Shown here piece by piece: positions 10,321-49,282 of a DNA stretch of 64,000 bases; position 1 is the stretch's first letter; the number at the start of each line of letters is the position of its first letter. Made by a program: the position numbers and the translations under genes. This stretch comes from a virus: IMG/VR virus record IMGVR_UViG_3300030061_003724, positions 1 to 64,000 of that record; one strand, written 5' to 3'. The notes under the pieces were generated by a model, which searched no databases, was not told the DNA's origin, and saw only the letters and a list, made by a program, of their open reading frames with translations.

Positions 10321-11110
10321 ATTTTATTCCCTTTATAATCTCACCATTTTTAGGATTGTGAGATAAGTTATTAAATAGTTGAGGGGCAATTCCCCATTTA
10401 TACATAAATAACTGAGCTGCAGGTCCTTCAGTCGCTCTAAACTTTTCACCTTCGTTCCCATTCTTTGTAGCTGTACTACCAAAATGGTATAGGTGCGCTT
10501 CATGTGTTCTAACAAAGCCGATACCGTTTAAATCCAGTTTTAAGAAGAAATCCCAGTCACATATAAAAGGAGATTGATACATTACGTCAAATCCTCCTAC
10601 AATCATATATTCTTTCTTATACATTGCAAAGGGGAATATGCCTCCATCAACCGTTAACTTATTATTTTTTATTGTTTTTTCATATTCAATAAATTTTGAG
10701 TATTCAAAATCTTTAGGGTTACGTCCAAAATCATATTCAGGAAAATCAAACATACTAGGGCCTGTAGGTTCTATTTGATTTAATGTTAATACTGATTTTT
10801 CTTTAACATTGTTTAATATAACATCATCAAAATCAGAACAAAAAACATTATCATCATTAACAATGAAAATAATTTCATTACTAGCATTCATTACAGCTAA
10901 ATTAAGTGCTTGCTGCATACCTTGATTTGCACCTAAATCTAATATTTTAATATGTTCCCTATGTTTATCTAAAACATGTTTACTTTCTTCAATAAATCCA
11001 TCTACAGCAACAATAATTTCATTTTTATGATTTTGTTGATCAATAGCTGATTGTAAACAAATATCTAAATAATCTGGATTTCTATAAGTTGGAATAATTA
11101 TACTAATCAT
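10313..11110 (-). CDS. Family 2 glycosyltransferase
   Basis: 265 aa. Starts MISIIIPTYRNPDYLDICLQ, the standard GT2 opening, with a LDLGANQGMQQALNLAV motif, the metal-binding VNDDNVF (DxD-like) and FICDWDFFLKL as the acceptor/catalytic base region. GT2 enzymes transfer sugars from nucleotide donors. It belongs to the run of glycosyltransferases and overlaps both neighbours. Confidence 0.88.
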   Translation of the reverse strand: MISIIIPTYRNPDYLDICLQSAIDQQNHKNEIIVAVDGFIEESKHVLDKHREHIKILDLGANQGMQQALNLAVMNASNEIIFIVNDDNVFCSDFDDVILNNVKEKSVLTLNQIEPTGPSMFDFPEYDFGRNPKDFEYSKFIEYEKTIKNNKLTVDGGIFPFAMYKKEYMIVGGFDVMYQSPFICDWDFFLKLDLNGIGFVRTHEAHLYHFGSTATKNGNEGEKFRATEGPAAQLFMYKWGIAPQLFNNLSHNPKNGEIIKGIKYE

Positions 11111-11730
11111 AATGTACTATAATAATCATTTTGTTTTTCTTGTCTTTTTATATCTTTAGGATGATATAAGCAATATTCTTCTTTAGCTGGTAATGTTGAA
11201 TAATGATTAAATCCTTCTAATACTTCATGTACTTTATTTTTCCAATTAATATCAGGTACATTTTTCCAAATACGCCATTGATAATCAGGGAAATTAACAT
11301 GACCTTTTTCATCAACTCTCCAACCCCATTTTACTATATGATCTTGAGTTAGACCTTCTACTGTATTAATTCTAGGTACTAATACAACTTCAATTTTTTC
11401 ATTTGATTCTAGTATTGCAGGTAATTGATTTATCAAATTTTCATTTGGTATTTCATCTGCATCAATTTGAAATATATAATCACCTGAACACATTTCTGTT
11501 AATTGGTTTTTCCAATCAGCAAAATGATGTTTAAATGTAGCTGCTTTATATACTACATTTTTTTCACCTTTAAGTTCAATAATACGATTCCATACTTCAG
11601 CTGTACCATTTCCTTTATCAAATAAAATTACAATTTCATCCTCTTTTCTTCTAAACTTTAAAAGAGTATTTAATAATTTAGTAACTTCATCTAATTCGTT
11701 ACAAACAGTAATTGCATAACTTATTTTCAT
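11107..11730 (-). CDS. Family 2 glycosyltransferase (WaaE/KdtX-like)
   Basis: 207 aa from the ATG at 11730 (MKISYAITVCNELDEVTKLL); the frame extends upstream but would overlap the neighbour by 56 nt. The donor site is FQIDADEIPNENL, with PRINTVEGL and YQWRIWKNVPDINWKNKVHE after it, as in LPS core glucosyltransferases of the WaaE type. The predicted role is sugar transfer on a surface glycan. It starts 1 nt after the preceding stop. Confidence 0.8.
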   Translation of the reverse strand: MKISYAITVCNELDEVTKLLNTLLKFRRKEDEIVILFDKGNGTAEVWNRIIELKGEKNVVYKAATFKHHFADWKNQLTEMCSGDYIFQIDADEIPNENLINQLPAILESNEKIEVVLVPRINTVEGLTQDHIVKWGWRVDEKGHVNFPDYQWRIWKNVPDINWKNKVHEVLEGFNHYSTLPAKEEYCLYHPKDIKRQEKQNDYYSTL

Positions 11731-18669: not shown

Positions 18670-20696
<2,027 letters not shown>

Positions 20697-38899: not shown

Positions 38900-38911
38900 A
38901 TTATAAATATT
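38900..38911 (-). promoter_or_regulatory. AATATTTATAAT motif
   Basis: The transcribed strand reads AATATTTATAATCACAACC in the gap before the holin candidate starting at 38843. Identical in its core to the elements at 58214 and 62215. Candidate late promoter element. Confidence 0.35.
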
Positions 38912-39335
38912 AGAATTTATCAGAGCTTTGTGCCTCTTTAATAGCTTCTTCAACATCTGATTTATCTGCTGGGAATTCTAGATCTAATCCAGCTTTGAAT
39001 TTTGTTTCAATTATGCCATCAAATATAATAAACATTGTTGGGGCCATTCTAACTCTGTATTTTTTAGTTGCTACAGGAGCATTAGCAATATTTACTCTAT
39101 AATAGTCTATATTTGGGTCATCTGCTAATTCTTTCCAATGAGGGTAACAATTAGCTTCATTAAATTTAGCCCAATATTCAACTACTACAACTTTACTATC
39201 ATCATCTCCAAATGCAGATTTTCCATTTATTACGTCTTCGTAATTTGAATCATCTAACCAATATTTTTCAGGTACGTCCTGTTGTCCAAATAAAATTGAG
39301 GGTATTGCTATTAGTAAAAAAAGAAGGTTTTTCAT
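38910..39335 (-). CDS. Secreted thioredoxin-fold protein without CxxC
   Basis: 141 aa. A Sec signal peptide (MKNLLFLLIAIPSILFGQQD) precedes a thioredoxin-like domain: SKVVVVEYWAKFNEANCYPH, IDYYRVNIANAP and the cis-Pro strand YRVRMAPTMFIIFDG. The active-site WCGPC is replaced by WAKFNEANC, leaving one cysteine, so redox activity is doubtful. Exported to the periplasm, it may act as a binding protein or chaperone. It is next to the outer-membrane barrel and two membrane proteins. Confidence 0.7.
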   Translation of the reverse strand: MKNLLFLLIAIPSILFGQQDVPEKYWLDDSNYEDVINGKSAFGDDDSKVVVVEYWAKFNEANCYPHWKELADDPNIDYYRVNIANAPVATKKYRVRMAPTMFIIFDGIIETKFKAGLDLEFPADKSDVEEAIKEAQSSDKF

Positions 39336-40911: not shown

Positions 40912-42624
40912 CTATCCATCACAGGAAACGCAATCAGCCATACGAGATCCTAAATCTCCTTTAATTACTGAATCAGTTCGTAAATAATAGAATGTTTTGA
41001 CACCTAACTTCCAACCTTCCATATGCACTTGATTGATCCATTTTGGTGAATCATTAGGGTCAAATGATAAATTTAATGATTGAGTTTGGTCAATATATTT
41101 TTGTCTTTCAGCTGCTTGTTTTACTAATTCTAATTGGTTTGTTTCTGAGAAAGTTAAAAATACTTCTTTTTCATCTGCCGTTAAAATATTATCTGGTAGA
41201 TTTAATACTGATCCACCTTCTTGTAACATTTGATCCCACCATTTATTTTTATTTTCTCCTTTAGATTCAAGTAACGCTTCTAATACTTTATTCTTTCTAA
41301 TAAAAGTACCTTTAGCACCGTTAAAAGTATAAACATTAGCAGGTAAAGGTTCAATACCAGCAGAAATACCACCACAAATTACAGAATTTGATACTGTAGG
41401 GGCTACAGCAAGCAGGTGAGTATTTCTCATACCAGTACCTTTACACCATAATGGTTCACCATATTCTTGAGCTAATTCCATAGAAGCAGATTCAGCTTCC
41501 ATTCTAATTTTATTAAAAATATTTCTTGTATGAACTGTAGATGCTACTGATGCAAAGGGTAAATTTTTCTGTTGTAAAAATGTATGCCAACCCATTACAC
41601 CTAAACCTAATGCTCTACCTTTTCTAGCATGGTTATGTGTTCTTTTTAATGAATCTTTACCATTTGATTTATCAATAAATTCTTGCATTACACCATCTAA
41701 AAACCAAATTGCAGTTTGAATACAATCTGTGTCTTTATATTCTTCCCATTTAGCTAGATTTAAAGATGATAAACAACAAATAAAAGAATGTTCTTCATCT
41801 GTAAATAATGTAATTTCAGAACAAATATTAGTCATAGAAACATCTAAATTGTGCATTCTATAAGCTATAGGATTATTTTTATTTACATTATCCTTAAACA
41901 TAATATAAGGTTCTCCTGTTTCCATTCTTGCTTTAAGAACTTTAGCCCATCTATTCATTGCTTCAGGATCCCTAGCTTCTAGTTTTCTCATAAATGAATC
42001 ACCTACAACAACACACTGATGTAAGTTAAGACATTGTCTATTAGGATCTCCTTTTGGTCTTCTTATTTCTAAAAATTCATCTATATCTTGATGTTCAATA
42101 TCTAAATTAACAGAAGCAGCACCTCTTCTAACATTACCTTGATTTGTTGCAATAATAGCAGAATCATATATTTTACACCATGGTACTACTCCTTCTGATT
42201 TTCCATTGCCAGAAATTTGTGTTCCACGTGGTCTAATACGAGATACACTAATACCTACCCCTCCACCAGAAGCGGTGAGTTTCATTAGTTCTGCGTTAGT
42301 TAAACCAATTCCACGTATTGAATCAGGTGTATCTATCCCAAAACAACTTATTGGTAAACCTCTATCAGTTCCCATATTAGAAATAACTGGTGAAGCTAAT
42401 CCAATCCAACCATTCCAAATATATTTAAAGAATTTATTCGCTAATTCAGGTTTTTTAAGTCTATCTGCTGATGCATTAGCTACCCTTTTATAAGCTTGTT
42501 TTACTGTTTCACCTGGGAGTAAATATCCTTTAGATATTGTTGCTAAAGAAATTTCATCCATCCACTCAGGATATTCTTTTCCTGGTGTCCAATCACTATA
42601 ATCTGCTATTAAATTATTATCCAT
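40912..42624 (-). CDS. nrdA: Ribonucleoside-diphosphate reductase alpha subunit, class I, no ATP-cone
   Basis: 570 aa, shorter than the 750-residue norm. It begins at the barrel domain with no N-terminal ATP-cone (allosteric activity site). Visible: GLPISCFG (first redox Cys), the NICSEI catalytic motif, ICCLSSLNLA (second redox Cys), APTVSNSVI and the C-terminal CVSCDG swinging cysteines. It reduces ribonucleotides to deoxyribonucleotides with NrdB (43941..44927). Without the ATP-cone, dATP feedback inhibition is expected to be lost. Confidence 0.94.
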   Translation of the reverse strand: MDNNLIADYSDWTPGKEYPEWMDEISLATISKGYLLPGETVKQAYKRVANASADRLKKPELANKFFKYIWNGWIGLASPVISNMGTDRGLPISCFGIDTPDSIRGIGLTNAELMKLTASGGGVGISVSRIRPRGTQISGNGKSEGVVPWCKIYDSAIIATNQGNVRRGAASVNLDIEHQDIDEFLEIRRPKGDPNRQCLNLHQCVVVGDSFMRKLEARDPEAMNRWAKVLKARMETGEPYIMFKDNVNKNNPIAYRMHNLDVSMTNICSEITLFTDEEHSFICCLSSLNLAKWEEYKDTDCIQTAIWFLDGVMQEFIDKSNGKDSLKRTHNHARKGRALGLGVMGWHTFLQQKNLPFASVASTVHTRNIFNKIRMEAESASMELAQEYGEPLWCKGTGMRNTHLLAVAPTVSNSVICGGISAGIEPLPANVYTFNGAKGTFIRKNKVLEALLESKGENKNKWWDQMLQEGGSVLNLPDNILTADEKEVFLTFSETNQLELVKQAAERQKYIDQTQSLNLSFDPNDSPKWINQVHMEGWKLGVKTFYYLRTDSVIKGDLGSRMADCVSCDG

Positions 42625-42631
42625 TTATTTA

Positions 42632-43915
42632 TTAATTACATACTCTTTTACCACCTACTGTTGTAGTTGTACAAGGAGTTGATTTAATTGTTACTGTGTT
42701 TACTAGTGGGTTTCCACTTTGTTTTGCTGGGTTAGTAGCCCATTCTGTTGTATATTTCCAACTATTATCGTCAGAATATATTGTTCCATCCATAGGTGCA
42801 CCTGATTGATTCCAATATACACAATGCATTTGTCCATTAAAATAATTATAAGTCATTCTAAATTGACCATTTGTAGGAACTGGTTTTATTCCTGTTGGAG
42901 GGTTTAATCCTGGGATAATAATAAAATCCGAACCTGAATTTGCATGGGAATTAGATTCAACATCTGCTTTACCTCCATTTGCTGGAATAACCCAAGTTTG
43001 ATCTTTTCTATCAACACCCCAAGTTGCTTTAACTGTCATGTCTTGGTCTGTATCGTTAATAAATGTTACTCTTACTGTAACAGGATCTGATTCTAATTTT
43101 TCTACTACACTTTCTGCTGTTACTCTTACATTTGAGATAGTATATTCTGATCCACCTTTACATAAATCAGACCAACTATTACAATTAGGGTCACTATAAT
43201 TATATAAATTATCAGGATTAGGTGAAAATCCTTGCCATAATGAAGCAACAACTTTATATCCTTTTTCCATGTTTTCTTTTAAACCATCTAAGCTAGTTAA
43301 TCCACTTCCTGGACCTGCTTCATTATTTTTAAAATCATATACTACTACACTATTATCTCCTTGAACATAAGTAGTTGTCATATTAGTATAATCATCATTA
43401 AATTCAGTTACAATATCAAATGGTAATGAAGGATCTATTTTACTTGCATCTACAATACCAGTACCAGTTGTTCCAGTAAAACAAGAAGTATCTCCTCCTA
43501 AAAATGCCCATTGATAGTTTTGAGTTTTATTTATGTGTATTGTTGCCTGAGTAGCTACATTTCCATTAGTTTCTAAAAAATCTATTTCATCACAACAGTT
43601 TGTACAACCATCACCAGAATCACAATATTCTGTTTCATTCATAACTAAATAAAAAGTTGCATTAACAAACTTTTGACCTGCTAATTTTGAAATATCTACT
43701 GTTGCTGAGATTTTAGAAATATTTTTATATCCTTGAGCAGAACGAACTCTACCCGGATTAAAAAATACCTTATCCTCTCCAATTACAGGAGCACCTTGAT
43801 CACATTTTTGATTGAAGTCAAGATTAAAAGTAGGGGTAAATTCTTGTACTGAAACTTCCGAATTATTACATCCTATAAAAATAAGAGATAATAAAATAAT
43901 TAAATAATTTTTCAT
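42632..43915 (-). CDS. Lipoprotein with GH7-like (clan GH-B) glycosidase signature
   Basis: 427 aa. A signal peptide with lipobox LIFIGC (C16) is followed by a mature domain containing CTNCCDEIDFLETNGNVATQ: E110-x-D112-x-x-E115, the nucleophile/assistant/acid-base arrangement of clan GH-B, with the CC-x-E-x-D-x-x-E-x-N context of GH7. LDGLKENMEKGYKVVASLWQ resembles the GMVLVMSLW strand of GH7. Many cysteines suggest disulfides. The last 120 residues form a separate beta domain. It would act on beta-1,4-type glucans or similar; substrate unknown. It is flanked by nrdB and nrdA. Confidence 0.65.
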   Translation of the reverse strand: MKNYLIILLSLIFIGCNNSEVSVQEFTPTFNLDFNQKCDQGAPVIGEDKVFFNPGRVRSAQGYKNISKISATVDISKLAGQKFVNATFYLVMNETEYCDSGDGCTNCCDEIDFLETNGNVATQATIHINKTQNYQWAFLGGDTSCFTGTTGTGIVDASKIDPSLPFDIVTEFNDDYTNMTTTYVQGDNSVVVYDFKNNEAGPGSGLTSLDGLKENMEKGYKVVASLWQGFSPNPDNLYNYSDPNCNSWSDLCKGGSEYTISNVRVTAESVVEKLESDPVTVRVTFINDTDQDMTVKATWGVDRKDQTWVIPANGGKADVESNSHANSGSDFIIIPGLNPPTGIKPVPTNGQFRMTYNYFNGQMHCVYWNQSGAPMDGTIYSDDNSWKYTTEWATNPAKQSGNPLVNTVTIKSTPCTTTTVGGKRVCN

Positions 43916-43940: not shown

Positions 43941-44927
43941 TTAAAATAATGATGCGGCATCCCAATTTTGAACACCTTTTGAGTAATTAGTTACTCTATT
44001 TGCAAAGAAATCTGTATGTTGTTTTCCACCTGATAGATTATCAAACCAACTCATTCTTTGTACTGCTTCTTTATCTATTCCATTTACAATTGATCCATAT
44101 CCTAGATCACTCATTTTTGTATTTACTCTATGTTTAATAAATGATATTAAATCATATTTTGGGCATCCATTTAAGTCACCCATCTCATAAACTTTATCAA
44201 TAAAATCTAATTCTAATTTTAAAGATAATCTAGCTGCTTCTTCAATATCAGCTTTTAATTTAGGTGTATCTAGTTCAGGATGTTCTTTAAGTAAAGTTCT
44301 AAATAACCAACACCCAGCATCTGAATGTAGTGATTCGTCTCTAATACTCCACTCAACTATTTGTCCTACTCCTTTTAGTTTATTATCTAGTTTAAATGAT
44401 AATAAAACAGCAAAAGAAGAAAATAAATTAACTCCTTCTGTAAATGCAGAAAAGATTGCTAATGATTTAGCTCTTTCATGCCAATTAGGAGTTCCATCAT
44501 GAGCATCTCTTACATTCATTAATGTTTCAATTTTAGCCATTGTGGTTTCATCCTCTAAAAATTCTGCAAAATCATCTAAACCTAATTCTTCGTTTAGTAA
44601 AGAATAAGCTTCCGCATGAATAGTTTCGAAAGCTCCAAATGTTACTGCCATTTTAATTACTTCAGGTTTTCTAAACCACTTTGTAACTAATGATGACCAA
44701 TAATCATTTACTACAGTCTCTGTTTGAGCAAAACCTTTTAGAATAGAACCTATAATATTTTTTTCTGTGTCAGATAAGTTTTGCTTCCAATCGTTTACAT
44801 CTGACATCATTGGTACTTCAGTATGAAGCCAATGCGCTTGTTGTTGTTTCATCCAGTAATCATGTGCTTCTGGATACTCAAACGGTTTATAAACGATACG
44901 TTCCTGCAATAAAGATGTTTTTGCCAT
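43941..44927 (-). CDS. nrdB: Ribonucleoside-diphosphate reductase beta subunit, class I
   Basis: 328 aa. Diiron ligands are visible as FGAFETIHAEAYSLL (Glu, His and the radical Tyr in ETIHAEAY), AFTEGVNLF and EWSIRDESLHSDAG. The C-terminus ends SKGVQNWDAASLF, the NrdA-binding tail. It supplies the tyrosyl radical for NrdA. Separated from nrdA by the GH7-like lipoprotein gene, which is unusual as nrdA and nrdB are normally adjacent. Confidence 0.93.
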   Translation of the reverse strand: MAKTSLLQERIVYKPFEYPEAHDYWMKQQQAHWLHTEVPMMSDVNDWKQNLSDTEKNIIGSILKGFAQTETVVNDYWSSLVTKWFRKPEVIKMAVTFGAFETIHAEAYSLLNEELGLDDFAEFLEDETTMAKIETLMNVRDAHDGTPNWHERAKSLAIFSAFTEGVNLFSSFAVLLSFKLDNKLKGVGQIVEWSIRDESLHSDAGCWLFRTLLKEHPELDTPKLKADIEEAARLSLKLELDFIDKVYEMGDLNGCPKYDLISFIKHRVNTKMSDLGYGSIVNGIDKEAVQRMSWFDNLSGGKQHTDFFANRVTNYSKGVQNWDAASLF

Positions 44928-44946: not shown

Positions 44947-46332
44947 TTATTTTTTTAGTTCAAAAAAACCAGGGTCATAAGCTTTTTTTAACTTTGCTCT
45001 ATCGAACTTATCTACATCAGTATCAAACTTGTTTGTTTTTGGGGCTGTTGTAAGATGTTCATCTTCGGTTAAGTCAGTATTATAGTGATGGACTTCAAAA
45101 TGGCCTGTAGACGTATCTGCTTTTACAGCAAATGTAAGACCATCTATACCATATCTATTTTTCATAATATGAAATCTACCTGTGTTATTAACTTTGTCCT
45201 CTTTTTTCCTTGATAAAGACATTGCGAAATCAGAGATCATCAACTTGTCATAGGAACCAGCTGCTTTATCTCCTTCAATTATCTCATCGTTTGCACCAGC
45301 CCTGTTAACCTGAGAAACTGACCAAATAGGAATGTCAAGTTCTCGAGCAAGACCTTTTGTGCTTGTATAAATATCATCAATTTCGTCCTTACGCTCCCTA
45401 TTTTTACGTTTTGATGAAAGTAAGTCAACATAATCAATAATAATTAAATCTGCTTTAACTCCCATCCCTTCAACTTTCTTAAGATGTGATTCAATTGTTG
45501 ACATAGTTGCACGTCCTGTAGGGTATTCTTTAATTATTAACCTACCTGGTAATTGAGGGATAACCTCTTCTGCTTTTTCTCTAAGTGGATTAGTTTGATT
45601 AACTGGTATATTAGTAAAGAAGGCGTCATATCGCTTTCCTACATAAGCTTCACCTAATTCTAAAGTATAATGAATAACATTATAACCTAATCTAACAGCA
45701 TAACCTCCTAATGCTACCAGAGACCACGACTTACCACCTCCTGGGCTACCAAATATGAGGCCAAAATCTCCATTTCCCAATCCGCCTTGTAAAATATCAT
45801 TAATTTTATTCCATGGCGTTGGTATAACTGTTCTTGAATTTTCTCTATATCGTTCTTCAATGTCTTTAACATATTCATGTCCTACGTTTTTATCCTGTCC
45901 TGCTTTTAATGCACCTTCAACTAAAAATCTAATGCCTTCAAAATCACCTGCTTTTAGTAGATCAACAGAACTCATTAGAGCCTTTTTTAACTGTTGGTTT
46001 CTACAAAAATTAGTAAATTCTTCTTGAACATATTTTAGATCATCATCTGAAGCTACATATGCTAATTTTAGTTGCTCCTTAATTGATAATTGCAGAACAT
46101 CATTATCAACTTTTTGTAATTCAACCTTTAAAATATCTAATGTTGGTGTAGTATGATATTTATCGTAATAATTTAATATTTGTTTTATACACCATTTGTG
46201 TGCACTATTTTCAAAAAATTCTTCACTGATAATATCATGTATATTAACTAAAAAATCCTTATGAGTTAATAACGATGATAACGCTTTAATCTGGAAATCG
46301 TGTCCGTATTGATTTAATGTTTGTAGTGTCAA
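44947..46332 (-). CDS. Replicative DNA helicase, T4 gp41-like (DnaB family)
   Basis: 461 aa, near T4 gp41 (475). The N-terminal helical domain precedes the RecA-like core with Walker A GSPGGGKS (195-202), Walker B LIIIDYVDLLS, and downstream SVSQVNRAGANDE and DFAMSLSRK motifs. As a hexamer it unwinds duplex DNA 5'-3' on the lagging strand. The partner primase is not in this window. Overlaps the 5' nuclease gene by 4 nt. Confidence 0.93.
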   Translation of the reverse strand: MTLQTLNQYGHDFQIKALSSLLTHKDFLVNIHDIISEEFFENSAHKWCIKQILNYYDKYHTTPTLDILKVELQKVDNDVLQLSIKEQLKLAYVASDDDLKYVQEEFTNFCRNQQLKKALMSSVDLLKAGDFEGIRFLVEGALKAGQDKNVGHEYVKDIEERYRENSRTVIPTPWNKINDILQGGLGNGDFGLIFGSPGGGKSWSLVALGGYAVRLGYNVIHYTLELGEAYVGKRYDAFFTNIPVNQTNPLREKAEEVIPQLPGRLIIKEYPTGRATMSTIESHLKKVEGMGVKADLIIIDYVDLLSSKRKNRERKDEIDDIYTSTKGLARELDIPIWSVSQVNRAGANDEIIEGDKAAGSYDKLMISDFAMSLSRKKEDKVNNTGRFHIMKNRYGIDGLTFAVKADTSTGHFEVHHYNTDLTEDEHLTTAPKTNKFDTDVDKFDRAKLKKAYDPGFFELKK

Positions 46333-47369
46333 TTTTTATAACCTTTAAAATGTAAAAATATATCTTTTAACCATGTATCTAAATTCCTAATCATACCTCC
46401 TAATTTGTCTTCATTATAAAATTGAATAAACATTTCAGAGTTTAATTCAGGTGTTTCTTCTGCTATTAGATCATCAAGATAATCCTTTTCCCTTTCATTA
46501 ATCATAGGAGTACTTAGATCCATAATTTTATAATTAGTTTCTAATCTACTTTGATCCTGAACTATTCGTGAATATACAACATGGTCTTTAAATTTCCTAG
46601 TAGAAATATCAAAAATATCATTTAATGTAAGAGACTCAGTTTGTAATTCAGGGAATTTTTTAAATATACCTTTTACACCTAATCCTTTAACTCCTGGAAT
46701 TTTATCTGAATTATCTCCTAGTAATGTTTTGTATAGAATAAAGTTTTCAGTTAGTACACCAAATTTTTCTTTTACTACCTTAGGAGTATAGTATTCTTTC
46801 TCCATTGGTCTGTATAATATAATTTTATCAGTTACTAATTGTACAAAATCTTTATCGCTTGAAACAATAAAACACGTTGAATTATGTTTTTCTACTAATT
46901 TTTCAGCTAATACTGCGATAATATCATCTGCCTCTACTTTATCAATAACTGTAGTTTTAACTGGTAGTAATTTTAGGTATTGAATTATTCTAACTATTTG
47001 ATCTACTTTTGAATCATGTTCTTCTTCTAAATTATCAAATGCATCCCAATTAGTAATACGTCTAATATCTCTATCTTGTTTGTACTCGGAGTGCAAGTTC
47101 TTACGACTAGCGGTAGAACCTGCACCATCGAATACTACATAAACAGAAGTAGGGTTAGTTTGTCTGATCATTGCTCCTAAAGAACGAAAGAACCCACCTA
47201 ACCCTCCAATGTGGATTCCATCAGGATTTACCATATTCATCATTGCAAAGTTTCTAAAAAATAGATTTAAACCATCTATTAATAGTACTTTATCATGTCT
47301 ATTTTCTACAGTTTCCTCCCCTTGCTCTTGGACTTCGTCCAACAACTTAAATAGTTCTTTATGCTTCAT
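46329..47369 (-). CDS. 5'-3' exonuclease / RNase H, T4 Rnh-like (FEN family)
   Basis: 346 aa. DKVLLIDGLNLFFRNF gives the first metal-binding Asp, VYVVFDGAGS the second, and VEADDIIAVLAEKL with CFIVSSDKDFVQLV the D-D/S-x-D-x-D cluster. LGDNSDKIPGVKGLGVKGIF is the helix-hairpin-helix DNA-binding motif. It removes RNA primers from Okazaki fragments. Length is slightly above T4 Rnh (305). Confidence 0.93.
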   Translation of the reverse strand: MKHKELFKLLDEVQEQGEETVENRHDKVLLIDGLNLFFRNFAMMNMVNPDGIHIGGLGGFFRSLGAMIRQTNPTSVYVVFDGAGSTASRKNLHSEYKQDRDIRRITNWDAFDNLEEEHDSKVDQIVRIIQYLKLLPVKTTVIDKVEADDIIAVLAEKLVEKHNSTCFIVSSDKDFVQLVTDKIILYRPMEKEYYTPKVVKEKFGVLTENFILYKTLLGDNSDKIPGVKGLGVKGIFKKFPELQTESLTLNDIFDISTRKFKDHVVYSRIVQDQSRLETNYKIMDLSTPMINEREKDYLDDLIAEETPELNSEMFIQFYNEDKLGGMIRNLDTWLKDIFLHFKGYKN

Positions 47370-47372
47370 AAT

Positions 47373-48443
47373 TTATTCTGGTTCTTTTTCGAAATGTGAA
47401 ATGTTCTCAACATAATTTTCTTCAATGATATCAAAATCACCTCCACCAAGCACTTTAGCCCAATCAGATGAATTATCTGATTTATATTGTTTTAGTTCTT
47501 TATCGTTATCATTAATGAAACCATGTGGAGTCATAACAATTTTTCCCCTCGTAGTAACACCATTAATATGATTCTTGTCAATTTGAATGTTTACTCTTTT
47601 AGCAAATTCAACTTGCTTACCATCTTTAATTGCTTTAATTTTAGATGTACCAGCATTTGAAATATTACCAAATGTAACTACAAATGTAGAATCAAACCAC
47701 ATAGCAAATCCACCTTTATTCATTAATTTAGGTTGACCCATAGGTGATTCTGCTTTTGCTGTCCACACTTTATTAATACAAACTAATGTATTAGTAAATG
47801 GTGATGACTCTTTTCTTGACAATGTAATTCTTTGGTTTACATTATTTCCAAATTGAGTTGACATTGCACCTGCATTCCATTCATTATTATTTTTATTTGA
47901 TTTAATAGACATTTCACAAGGTACTGATCCAATACTATCCCATAAGAATAATAAATCATAAGGTAAATTACCTTTCTTTTGTTCATCTAATAAATCTAAA
48001 ATAAATCCAGCTACGTCTTCAATTGAGTGAATAGTTTCTCTATCAACATAAAGAAAATTACCATCATAATCTACAACTTCACCGTTTTCATCTCTTTCAA
48101 TATTAATGTCTAATCCCATTTGGATTGCATGTTCCCAATTCCATTTCATCTCAGTAATAATGAATACAGGCAGTATTCTACGCTTTTGCGCAGATACTGC
48201 TGCTTCAATTAATGCTGTTGTCTTACCTGTATCGGAGTGTCCTCTTAGTAACACAATGTGTCCCATAGGAATACCAGGAATAGAAGTAACATCTTGGAAT
48301 GCTTTTGATAAAGGTAACCATTCTTGGTCCTTAAATTTAACATTCTTGTCTAGTCCTTTCTTATTCTTAAAACTTGATAAATCAAATTTAGATTGGATTT
48401 CTTTAGAGACTGCCGCCGATAATGATTTCTTTTGTCTCGCCAT
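47373..48443 (-). CDS. UvsX-like RecA recombinase
   Basis: 356 aa. Walker A GHSDTGKTT (68-76), a Walker B LLFLWDSIGS and RITLSRKESSPFTNTLVCIN, as in T4 UvsX. It pairs homologous DNA and drives recombination-dependent replication. Located 2 nt from the SSB gene and 3 nt from the 5' nuclease gene. The C-terminus is acidic. Confidence 0.93.
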   Translation of the reverse strand: MARQKKSLSAAVSKEIQSKFDLSSFKNKKGLDKNVKFKDQEWLPLSKAFQDVTSIPGIPMGHIVLLRGHSDTGKTTALIEAAVSAQKRRILPVFIITEMKWNWEHAIQMGLDINIERDENGEVVDYDGNFLYVDRETIHSIEDVAGFILDLLDEQKKGNLPYDLLFLWDSIGSVPCEMSIKSNKNNNEWNAGAMSTQFGNNVNQRITLSRKESSPFTNTLVCINKVWTAKAESPMGQPKLMNKGGFAMWFDSTFVVTFGNISNAGTSKIKAIKDGKQVEFAKRVNIQIDKNHINGVTTRGKIVMTPHGFINDNDKELKQYKSDNSSDWAKVLGGGDFDIIEENYVENISHFEKEPE

Positions 48444-48445
48444 AC

Positions 48446-49282
48446 TTAGAAGGGTAAATCATCAGTTTTTTTATCATCACCATCAAATAATGAATCAAAC
48501 TCATCTGTCTTATTTTGTTTAGCTTTAGTTGTATCTAAAGAAAAACTACTAGCTGGTTTGTCATCAAAATCACTTGCAGGCTCAGAAATAATGTCACCTT
48601 CTTGTTCGCTATCTTCTGGTTCTAACCATTTTTCTAACGCTGATTTCATTTCATCAAATGTGAATTGTTTGAACTCCTTTGTAGGGTCTGGTTGGTCTTT
48701 TAACCATTTTTCTACTAGAGCAGCATCATCACTAAGTGGTGTTTGTTTTAGTCTAACTCTAACTGACGATTTATTATACTGAGTACCTGTAGCTTCTGGT
48801 CCTACTGTTTCGATAGTAAGATCTCTACCGTTTACTACATCAGTATAATCTCCAATTTCCTCATCTACTGCTAATGAAAGTAATTCTTCATAAATTAACT
48901 TTCCAAATTGCCATAGTCTAACACCTTTATCCTCCTCTCCTCGAACGATAACTGGAGCAAATACTCTAGTTTTAGCATCTAACTTTTTGGCAAGTAGATA
49001 ATTTTCTTTGCTATATTCTTCTCTAAGTTTTTTAGCAAATAAAGCAATCGGGTCCTTCTCTCCCCATGTTTCAGGTGAAAGCATAACCTTATTAGTAATA
49101 CCATAATAGAATTTTAATTCCGTGAATGGGTTATTAGAATTAATAGCACTAGGCACAATTCTAATTTGTTGTTTACCTACTGTAGGTCTCCAAAATGTAA
49201 GACTATAATCTCTCTTTTGTCCACCAGCAGGTGTTTTTTGTTGGAGCGTGTCCAACTTCTGTTTAAGCATTGATAAATCCAT
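48446..49282 (-). CDS. Single-stranded DNA-binding protein, T4 gp32-like
   Basis: 278 aa (T4 gp32 301). N-terminal MDLSMLKQKLDTLQQKTPAG with basic residues for cooperative binding, a core with SLTFWRPTVGKQQIRIVPSA and VFAPVIVRGEEDKGVRLWQF, and an acidic C-terminal tail ending DDLPF that recruits partners. The zinc ligands of T4 gp32 are not seen in the core. It organises lagging-strand ssDNA. Preceded by a good promoter at 49311. Confidence 0.9.
   Translation of the reverse strand: MDLSMLKQKLDTLQQKTPAGGQKRDYSLTFWRPTVGKQQIRIVPSAINSNNPFTELKFYYGITNKVMLSPETWGEKDPIALFAKKLREEYSKENYLLAKKLDAKTRVFAPVIVRGEEDKGVRLWQFGKLIYEELLSLAVDEEIGDYTDVVNGRDLTIETVGPEATGTQYNKSSVRVRLKQTPLSDDAALVEKWLKDQPDPTKEFKQFTFDEMKSALEKWLEPEDSEQEGDIISEPASDFDDKPASSFSLDTTKAKQNKTDEFDSLFDGDDKKTDDLPF

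Follow-up and report, generated by a model that had tools for sequence, protein, structure and literature searches.

Locus and Gene Organization

The stretch of DNA analysed in this study (the window; positions 1 to 64,000 of IMG/VR record IMGVR_UViG_3300030061_003724) belongs to a virus contig of 81,318 bases that harbors a contractile-tail sheath gene, a phage GroEL gene (window 18687–20348), and a phage replication block. On the minus strand, we identified an intact open reading frame of 427 codons with an ATG start (42632–43915), the product of which is a predicted lipoprotein of 427 aa. An earlier note on this DNA, based on the letters alone, had placed this reading frame between nrdB and nrdA, which was borne out, as Pfam confirmed both neighbours. 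Since the gaps comprise 25 bp between the nrdB stop and the start of the gene and 7 bp between its stop and the start of nrdA, the arrangement of the three genes is that of a single operon (Table 1). The same gene occupies the slot between nrdB and nrdA in two further phage contigs, L001 and L002 (91% and 97% amino acid identity over the domain, respectively), so that a chance frame can be dismissed. Apart from that, an exported thioredoxin-like protein, which might serve disulphide formation, is encoded near the gene (38910–39335).

Table 1. Features of the locus and of the GH7-like protein (window coordinates).
Feature	Position	Strand	Basis
GH7-like lipoprotein gene	42632..43915	-	ORF; IMG/VR homologues; GH7 profile and fold matches
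nrdB, RNR small subunit	43941..44927	-	Pfam PF00268 1.5e-61
nrdA, RNR large subunit; without ATP-cone match	40912..42624	-	Pfam PF02867 1e-98, PF00317 3e-9
Replication block upstream: DnaB-type helicase, 5'-3' exonuclease, RecA/UvsX-like, ssDNA-binding protein	44947..49282	-	order matches Flavobacterium phage immuto
Signal peptide, residues 1-16, lipobox ending at C16	43868..43915	-	sequence MKNYLIILLSLIFIGC
GH7-like catalytic domain (predicted), residues 21-271	43103..43855	-	AlphaFold2; Foldseek
Catalytic strand (putative) C107-N117 with E110, D112, E115	43565..43597	-	aligned to CNELDIWEAN of GH7 8pof
H127, counterpart of conserved GH7 active-site histidine	43535..43537	-	aligned to H of 8pof
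Strand G219-W227 (GYKVVASLW)	43235..43261	-	alignment to GH7 GHVIVVSLW
Extra C-terminal domain, residues 272-427	42635..43102	-	absent from L001 and L002, the closest relatives

The lipobox cysteine C16 (in FIGC), the segment C107-C108-D-E110-I-D112-F-L-E115-T-N, and the strand G219-YKVVASLW-227 were all found as the earlier note had described them. The C-terminal domain is related to a separate lipoprotein gene that adjoins the GH7-like gene in contig L011 (4690–5202; tblastn 1e-7).

Sequence Relationships to GH7 and GH16

Searches against Pfam, PHROGs, and NCBIfam resulted in no significant match for the window protein. Throughout the analysis, matches to DUF3244, Ntox27, Tudor, and Kelch were weak, fell below the cut-off, and were dropped. 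A search of the PDB with the single sequence revealed one match, 8pof ("Putative glycosyl hydrolase family7", E=1.7e-5). Based on a family built from IMG/VR, an alignment of 39 diverse members (A5), most of them 36–48% identical to the window protein, was used for a profile as well as for AlphaFold2. Searching all PDB sequences with this profile (hmmsearch) gave 8pof with E=8.7e-13 over 177 profile columns, while six of the seven other matches were GH7 chains (E 0.03–0.27), the seventh was unrelated (0.86), and no GH16 chain appeared up to E=10. For the matched segment of 8pof, Pfam in turn assigns GH7 (PF00840, 1.3e-45), and some 40 GH7 chains from fungi, protists, and animals match it as well; the protein is RsSymEG1, counted among the "smaller GH7 endoglucanases" in its Foldseek title. 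In hhalign, the phage family reached a probability of 96.8% against GH7 (E 2.4e-10, 175 columns) compared to 57.5% against GH16 (E 1e-4, 69 columns around the catalytic strand), a comparison limited by alignments of only two sequences each for GH7 and GH16, and the small GH7 set aligned to the small GH16 set as a control gave 3.7%. Thus, the phage family is nearer to GH7, as the earlier note had proposed, yet also touches GH16.

Within A5, residues E110, D112, E115, and H127 are invariant, likewise Y97-C98-D99 (YCDAQ in GH7) and C108, and six cysteines show complete or nearly complete conservation. The spacing of the first glutamate, the aspartate at +2, and the second glutamate at +5 equals that of E212/D214/E217 of Cel7A, residues named in the PDB titles of Foldseek matches. 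Further features that align to GH7, located away from the catalytic strand, are N-A-x-x-Y, YCD, PF--V--F, Y-Q, and S-W. By alignment to GH7, E110, D112, and E115 would be expected to meet in one cleft. The tryptophan of the W-E-A-N motif of GH7 is replaced, the members read showing L/M/I/V-E-T-N, and PF00840 at its curated cut-off matched neither the window protein nor 16 members of a further alignment (A3) nor eight additional proteins; PF00722 gave no match in the Pfam scans either. Altogether, our analysis supports a divergent, GH7-like family, and since the PF00840 cut-off is not reached, W-E-A-N is absent, and the activity is a predicted one, we leave formal membership in GH7 undeclared.

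Predicted Structure

AlphaFold2 modelling of residues 21–271 with A5 resulted in a pLDDT of 94.1 and a pTM of 0.91; a model of the full protein obtained with six sequences (pLDDT 42) was unusable and was superseded by the 39-sequence run. The predicted model displays the GH-B fold with an ExDxE/ExDxxE strand and the Cel7-type beta-sandwich. In a Foldseek comparison with the PDB, the best 29 matches were all GH7 (best E 7e-11), followed from rank 30 by the GH16-type plant enzyme EG16 (VvEG16) mixed with further GH7 chains and then by other GH16 enzymes, so that the structure prediction also sided with the GH7 reading of the earlier note, with GH16 in second place. Normalized by query length, TM-scores were 0.50–0.57 for GH7 and 0.58 for VvEG16, i.e., GH7 scored no better than the GH16-type enzyme. 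Such moderate values would be fitting for a stripped-down core, and the predicted domain of 251 aa is devoid of the long active-site loops and the tunnel of GH7.

A divergent GH16-type beta-glucanase, whose GH7 likeness would amount to the catalytic strand shared throughout clan GH-B, is suggested by the top TM-score to plant EG16 (0.58 by query, 0.70 by target), by a domain size nearer to GH16, and by the weak hhalign link around the catalytic strand. We regard this alternative as decidedly unlikely, given that the PDB profile search revealed GH7 chains and no GH16, that the far stronger hhalign match to GH7 extends over 175 columns, and that the shared features beyond the catalytic strand align to GH7.

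With GH7 endoglucanases (RsSymEG1 being the nearest, besides fungal Cel7B and Cel7A), the phage family has in common the fold (predicted here), the ExDxxE strand with the following histidine, YCD, the core strand order, export, and many cysteines. It differs in the missing long loops, L-E-T-N instead of W-E-A-N, its lipoprotein nature, its being encoded by phages, and a similarity below PF00840 detection; moreover, its domain comprises about 250 aa, while 8pof has 321 aa and other GH7 chains about 370–450 aa. With GH16 (plant EG16, Bacteroides mixed-linkage glucanase), it shares clan GH-B, the jelly-roll, the ExDxxE beta-bulge motif, and a similar size, whereas only the region of the catalytic strand aligns, PDB matches to the profile are lacking up to E=10, and six conserved cysteines mark the phage family. 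As judged from these comparisons, the gene is best explained as encoding a minimal (~250 aa) member of a putative new phage family in clan GH-B that is closest to GH7 in sequence.

Distribution of the Family

Screening IMG/VR with the degenerate pattern C-x-E-I-D-x-x-E-T-N-G matched 89 stretches, 80 of which were listed, and all translated ones turned out to be family members. Thus, the family is present on at least 80 IMG/VR contigs, and 64 distinct sequences were left after removal of identical copies. The pattern C-x-E-x-D-x-W-E-A-N resulted in two chance matches in short frames of genome contigs and none in IMG/VR. No member was found among 50,697 phage records (INPHARED), where the window protein gave only noise at E=3 and the relative L113 nothing. 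Likewise, neither the degenerate pattern in 84,980 genomes nor a profile search of 396 sampled Bacteroidota genomes revealed a member, while the same profile recovered four known members with E below 1e-114 as a control. Since no member was found in the genomes searched, the gene does not present itself as a host-derived (auxiliary) metabolic gene.

Genomic Setting and Gene Movement

The survey proposed in the earlier note showed that many phages carry this gene in their RNR operons. While the order nrdB-GH7-nrdA is found in the window, L001, and L002, the GH7-like gene follows nrdA in L011, L028, L053, and L056, and a large second clade displays nrdA-GH7-nrdB-grx or nrdA-nrdB-GH7-grx. In a tree of 55 distinct phage sequences, 32 (about 60%) were RNR-linked and five were located in the region of thyA. 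On this tree, three to four changes of the RNR label were required, so that the linkage is not a single frozen arrangement; as the changes are so few, simple counts of RNR-linked members were not treated as independent events. Moreover, the two RNR-linked groups differ in the ATP cone of their RNR proteins, which are only 21–22% identical, while their GH7-like proteins share 39% identity, indicating that the enzyme was not simply inherited along with the operon.

Vacant sites were detected in Flavobacterium phage vB_FspM_immuto, in which nrdB and nrdA are 9 bp apart, and in Xanthomonas phage X1, with the order nrdA-nrdB-(zinc finger)-grx. At the nucleotide level, most of the GH7 domain is 93–99% identical to L001 and 97–100% to L002, compared to mostly 80–92% in the flanks, and this sharply bounded island (window 43103–43800) covers the GH7 domain only. 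Within the window's own group, dS is 0.03–0.11 in the GH7-like gene versus 0.53–0.66 in nrdB. Both the island and the low dS indicate a recent exchange of the gene between phages. Most pairs tested revealed purifying selection (dN/dS 0.07–0.19), while values of 0.5–0.65 in the window's own small group derive from few substitutions. In the second clade, a frame like a GIY-YIG homing endonuclease was recognized by eye inside a split nrdA (L089). Based on the vacant sites in relatives, the recent exchange, and the other inserts in RNR operons, we take the RNR operon to be mainly a niche in which the GH7-like gene can insert and be expressed. A functional tie to RNR itself was downgraded, as about 40% of the distinct members lie away from RNR and unrelated inserts occur in these operons; a direct role in nucleotide reduction is implausible for a protein predicted to be exported.

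Inspection of second-clade RNR operons by eye also revealed, along with split nrdA genes and the GIY-YIG-like frame, aldolase-like and methyltransferase-like ORFs (L089:16-2779, L122:4175-8544, L106:11855-12475, L071:2994-4429).

The closest cultured relative found by NrdA is phage immuto (Immutovirus) from the Baltic Sea (69%), which makes a host among the Flavobacteriia likely for the window virus. Both share the polymerase-ssb-recA-exo-helicase-nrdB-nrdA block, but immuto has no GH7-like gene between nrdB and nrdA.

Two divergent groups of phages have the gene in one operon with nrdA, nrdB, and glutaredoxin, and a third has it in the region of thyA, which would also suit an auxiliary metabolic enzyme that frees sugars from environmental beta-glucan (laminarin, cellulose) for dNTP synthesis during infection. 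The yield within one infection cycle is doubtful, though, unrelated cargo is likewise found in RNR operons, and we noticed no sugar transporter or sugar-processing gene beside the GH7-like gene, so that we assign this role a low probability. A known phage auxiliary glycoside hydrolase, the soil viral chitosanase (PMC9485262), is similarly a virus-encoded carbohydrate-active enzyme outside the virion genes; in contrast to it, the GH7-like protein belongs to another enzyme family, is predicted to be lipid-anchored, and lies in an RNR operon.

Putative Cys-Rich Partner

In several loci, the GH7-like gene adjoins a gene for a Cys-rich exported protein (Y-A-x-C-x-A-S...P-T-G...C-P). This was the case in the RNR-linked contigs L029, L068, and L083 as well as, without RNR in view, in L003, L013–L015, L021, L040, and L092 (e.g., L083:9275-9823, L092:9854-10453, L003:6721-7440, L013:8799-9407), while in L011 and L053 the partner is fused to the C terminus of the GH7-like protein. 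It revealed no credible match in Pfam, PHROGs, NCBIfam, or PDB and was not found in the 396 Bacteroidota genomes. It constitutes an undescribed exported family that recurs in otherwise unrelated phage loci. A linkage that survives changes of location, together with the fusions, suggests that the two proteins may work together. In L092, a tryptophan-halogenase-like gene (10525–11706; PF04820, 3.9e-29) directly adjoins the GH7-like gene.

Export and Location

A heuristic scan, which misses a few, identified a lipobox in 45 of the 64 distinct full-length relatives, and a lipobox or Sec signal is present in most members. In L016, L017, and L019, no signal peptide was recognizable, and L036 and L047 possess a different N-terminal domain in its place, so that the location varies and an envelope location is not universal. 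With regard to the outer-membrane display put forward in the earlier note, the lipobox at C16 upholds the predicted lipidation, while the part concerning surface export found no counterpart in the sequence: Bacteroidetes surface-export signals following the lipid cysteine are K-(D/E)2, Q-A-(D/E)2, or SDDFE-like (PMC5080379), and residues +2 to +6 of the window protein (NNSEV) do not fit them. A periplasm-facing enzyme is thus equally possible.

A lipobox without a surface signal would also be in keeping with a role in lysis, in which the lipoprotein would face the periplasm and assist the endolysin by cutting the glycan strands of peptidoglycan or some other periplasmic glycan. Just downstream of the gene in L006 and L065 lie two small genes for predicted membrane proteins, which look holin-like by eye and are unannotated, and a DUF5675 gene and small membrane proteins lie about 5–7 kb from the window gene. 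RNR-type loci, however, place the gene in a nucleotide/replication operon rather than a lysis cassette, a second-clade phage (L098) has its own cell wall hydrolase (PF07486), and no GH7 or GH16 enzyme is known to act on peptidoglycan; we therefore consider a role in lysis unlikely.

The absence of a signal peptide in some relatives and the unknown N-terminal domain of L036 and L047 might also hint at a non-catalytic, lectin-like glycan-binding or virion-associated protein that retains the GH-B fold. Lectins derived from enzymes usually lose their catalytic residues, whereas the catalytic acids and the histidine are invariant throughout this family. In addition, a lipobox, as present in most members, speaks against a virion protein, so that we hold this explanation to be very improbable.

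Proposed Function

Taking fold, residues, and signal together, we consider it probable (roughly 0.6) that the protein is a minimal retaining beta-glycanase of clan GH-B, which would be exported to the envelope of the infected cell and cut a glycan there. By analogy with its family, it would act as a retaining endo-beta-glycosidase with E110 as nucleophile, E115 as acid/base, and D112 for positioning. As to its substrate, the cellulase/laminarinase-like specificity put forward in the earlier note is a guess. As the protein lacks the long loops that form the tunnel of GH7 cellobiohydrolases, its cleft would be open, and up to three disulphides may be formed by the six conserved cysteines. Judging from the signal, the protein would leave the cytoplasm early or in mid-infection, receive a lipid at C16, and become attached to the outer membrane of the host. 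Least certain is its presumed task there, namely trimming a beta-linked glycan in the envelope of the infected cell or in the matrix around it, by which it might block superinfection or ease the release of progeny. The Cys-rich exported protein, often adjoining or fused, probably acts jointly with it. As a mobile accessory gene repeatedly settling in RNR operons, the GH7-like gene may gain a suitable expression time.

According to a GH7 study from 2018, no prokaryote was known to carry a GH7 gene (PMC5766984). With the minimal GH7-like family described here, which retains its catalytic residues and occurs on at least 80 phage contigs, GH7 would come to include bacterial viruses. The family would also provide the smallest GH7-type scaffold for study and offer a test of the origin of GH7 within clan GH-B. 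Moreover, an unrecognized step of infection is suggested, in which large tailed phages express a putative exported glycosidase from their RNR operon. More speculatively, and with considerable doubt on our part, GH7 might have a prokaryote-virus branch, short and poor in loops, standing between GH16 and eukaryotic GH7 and possibly close to the stock of eukaryotic GH7 cellulases; joined by the Cys-rich partner, these phage proteins would make up an exported two-protein system for glycan processing that has so far gone undescribed.

Downstream of nrdA, runs of genes for signal-peptide proteins were observed in L002 (10535–16123) and in MW353175.1 (10527–14444). Two signal-peptide proteins downstream of nrdA in phage immuto are annotated as a C-type lectin and a cohesin-domain protein.
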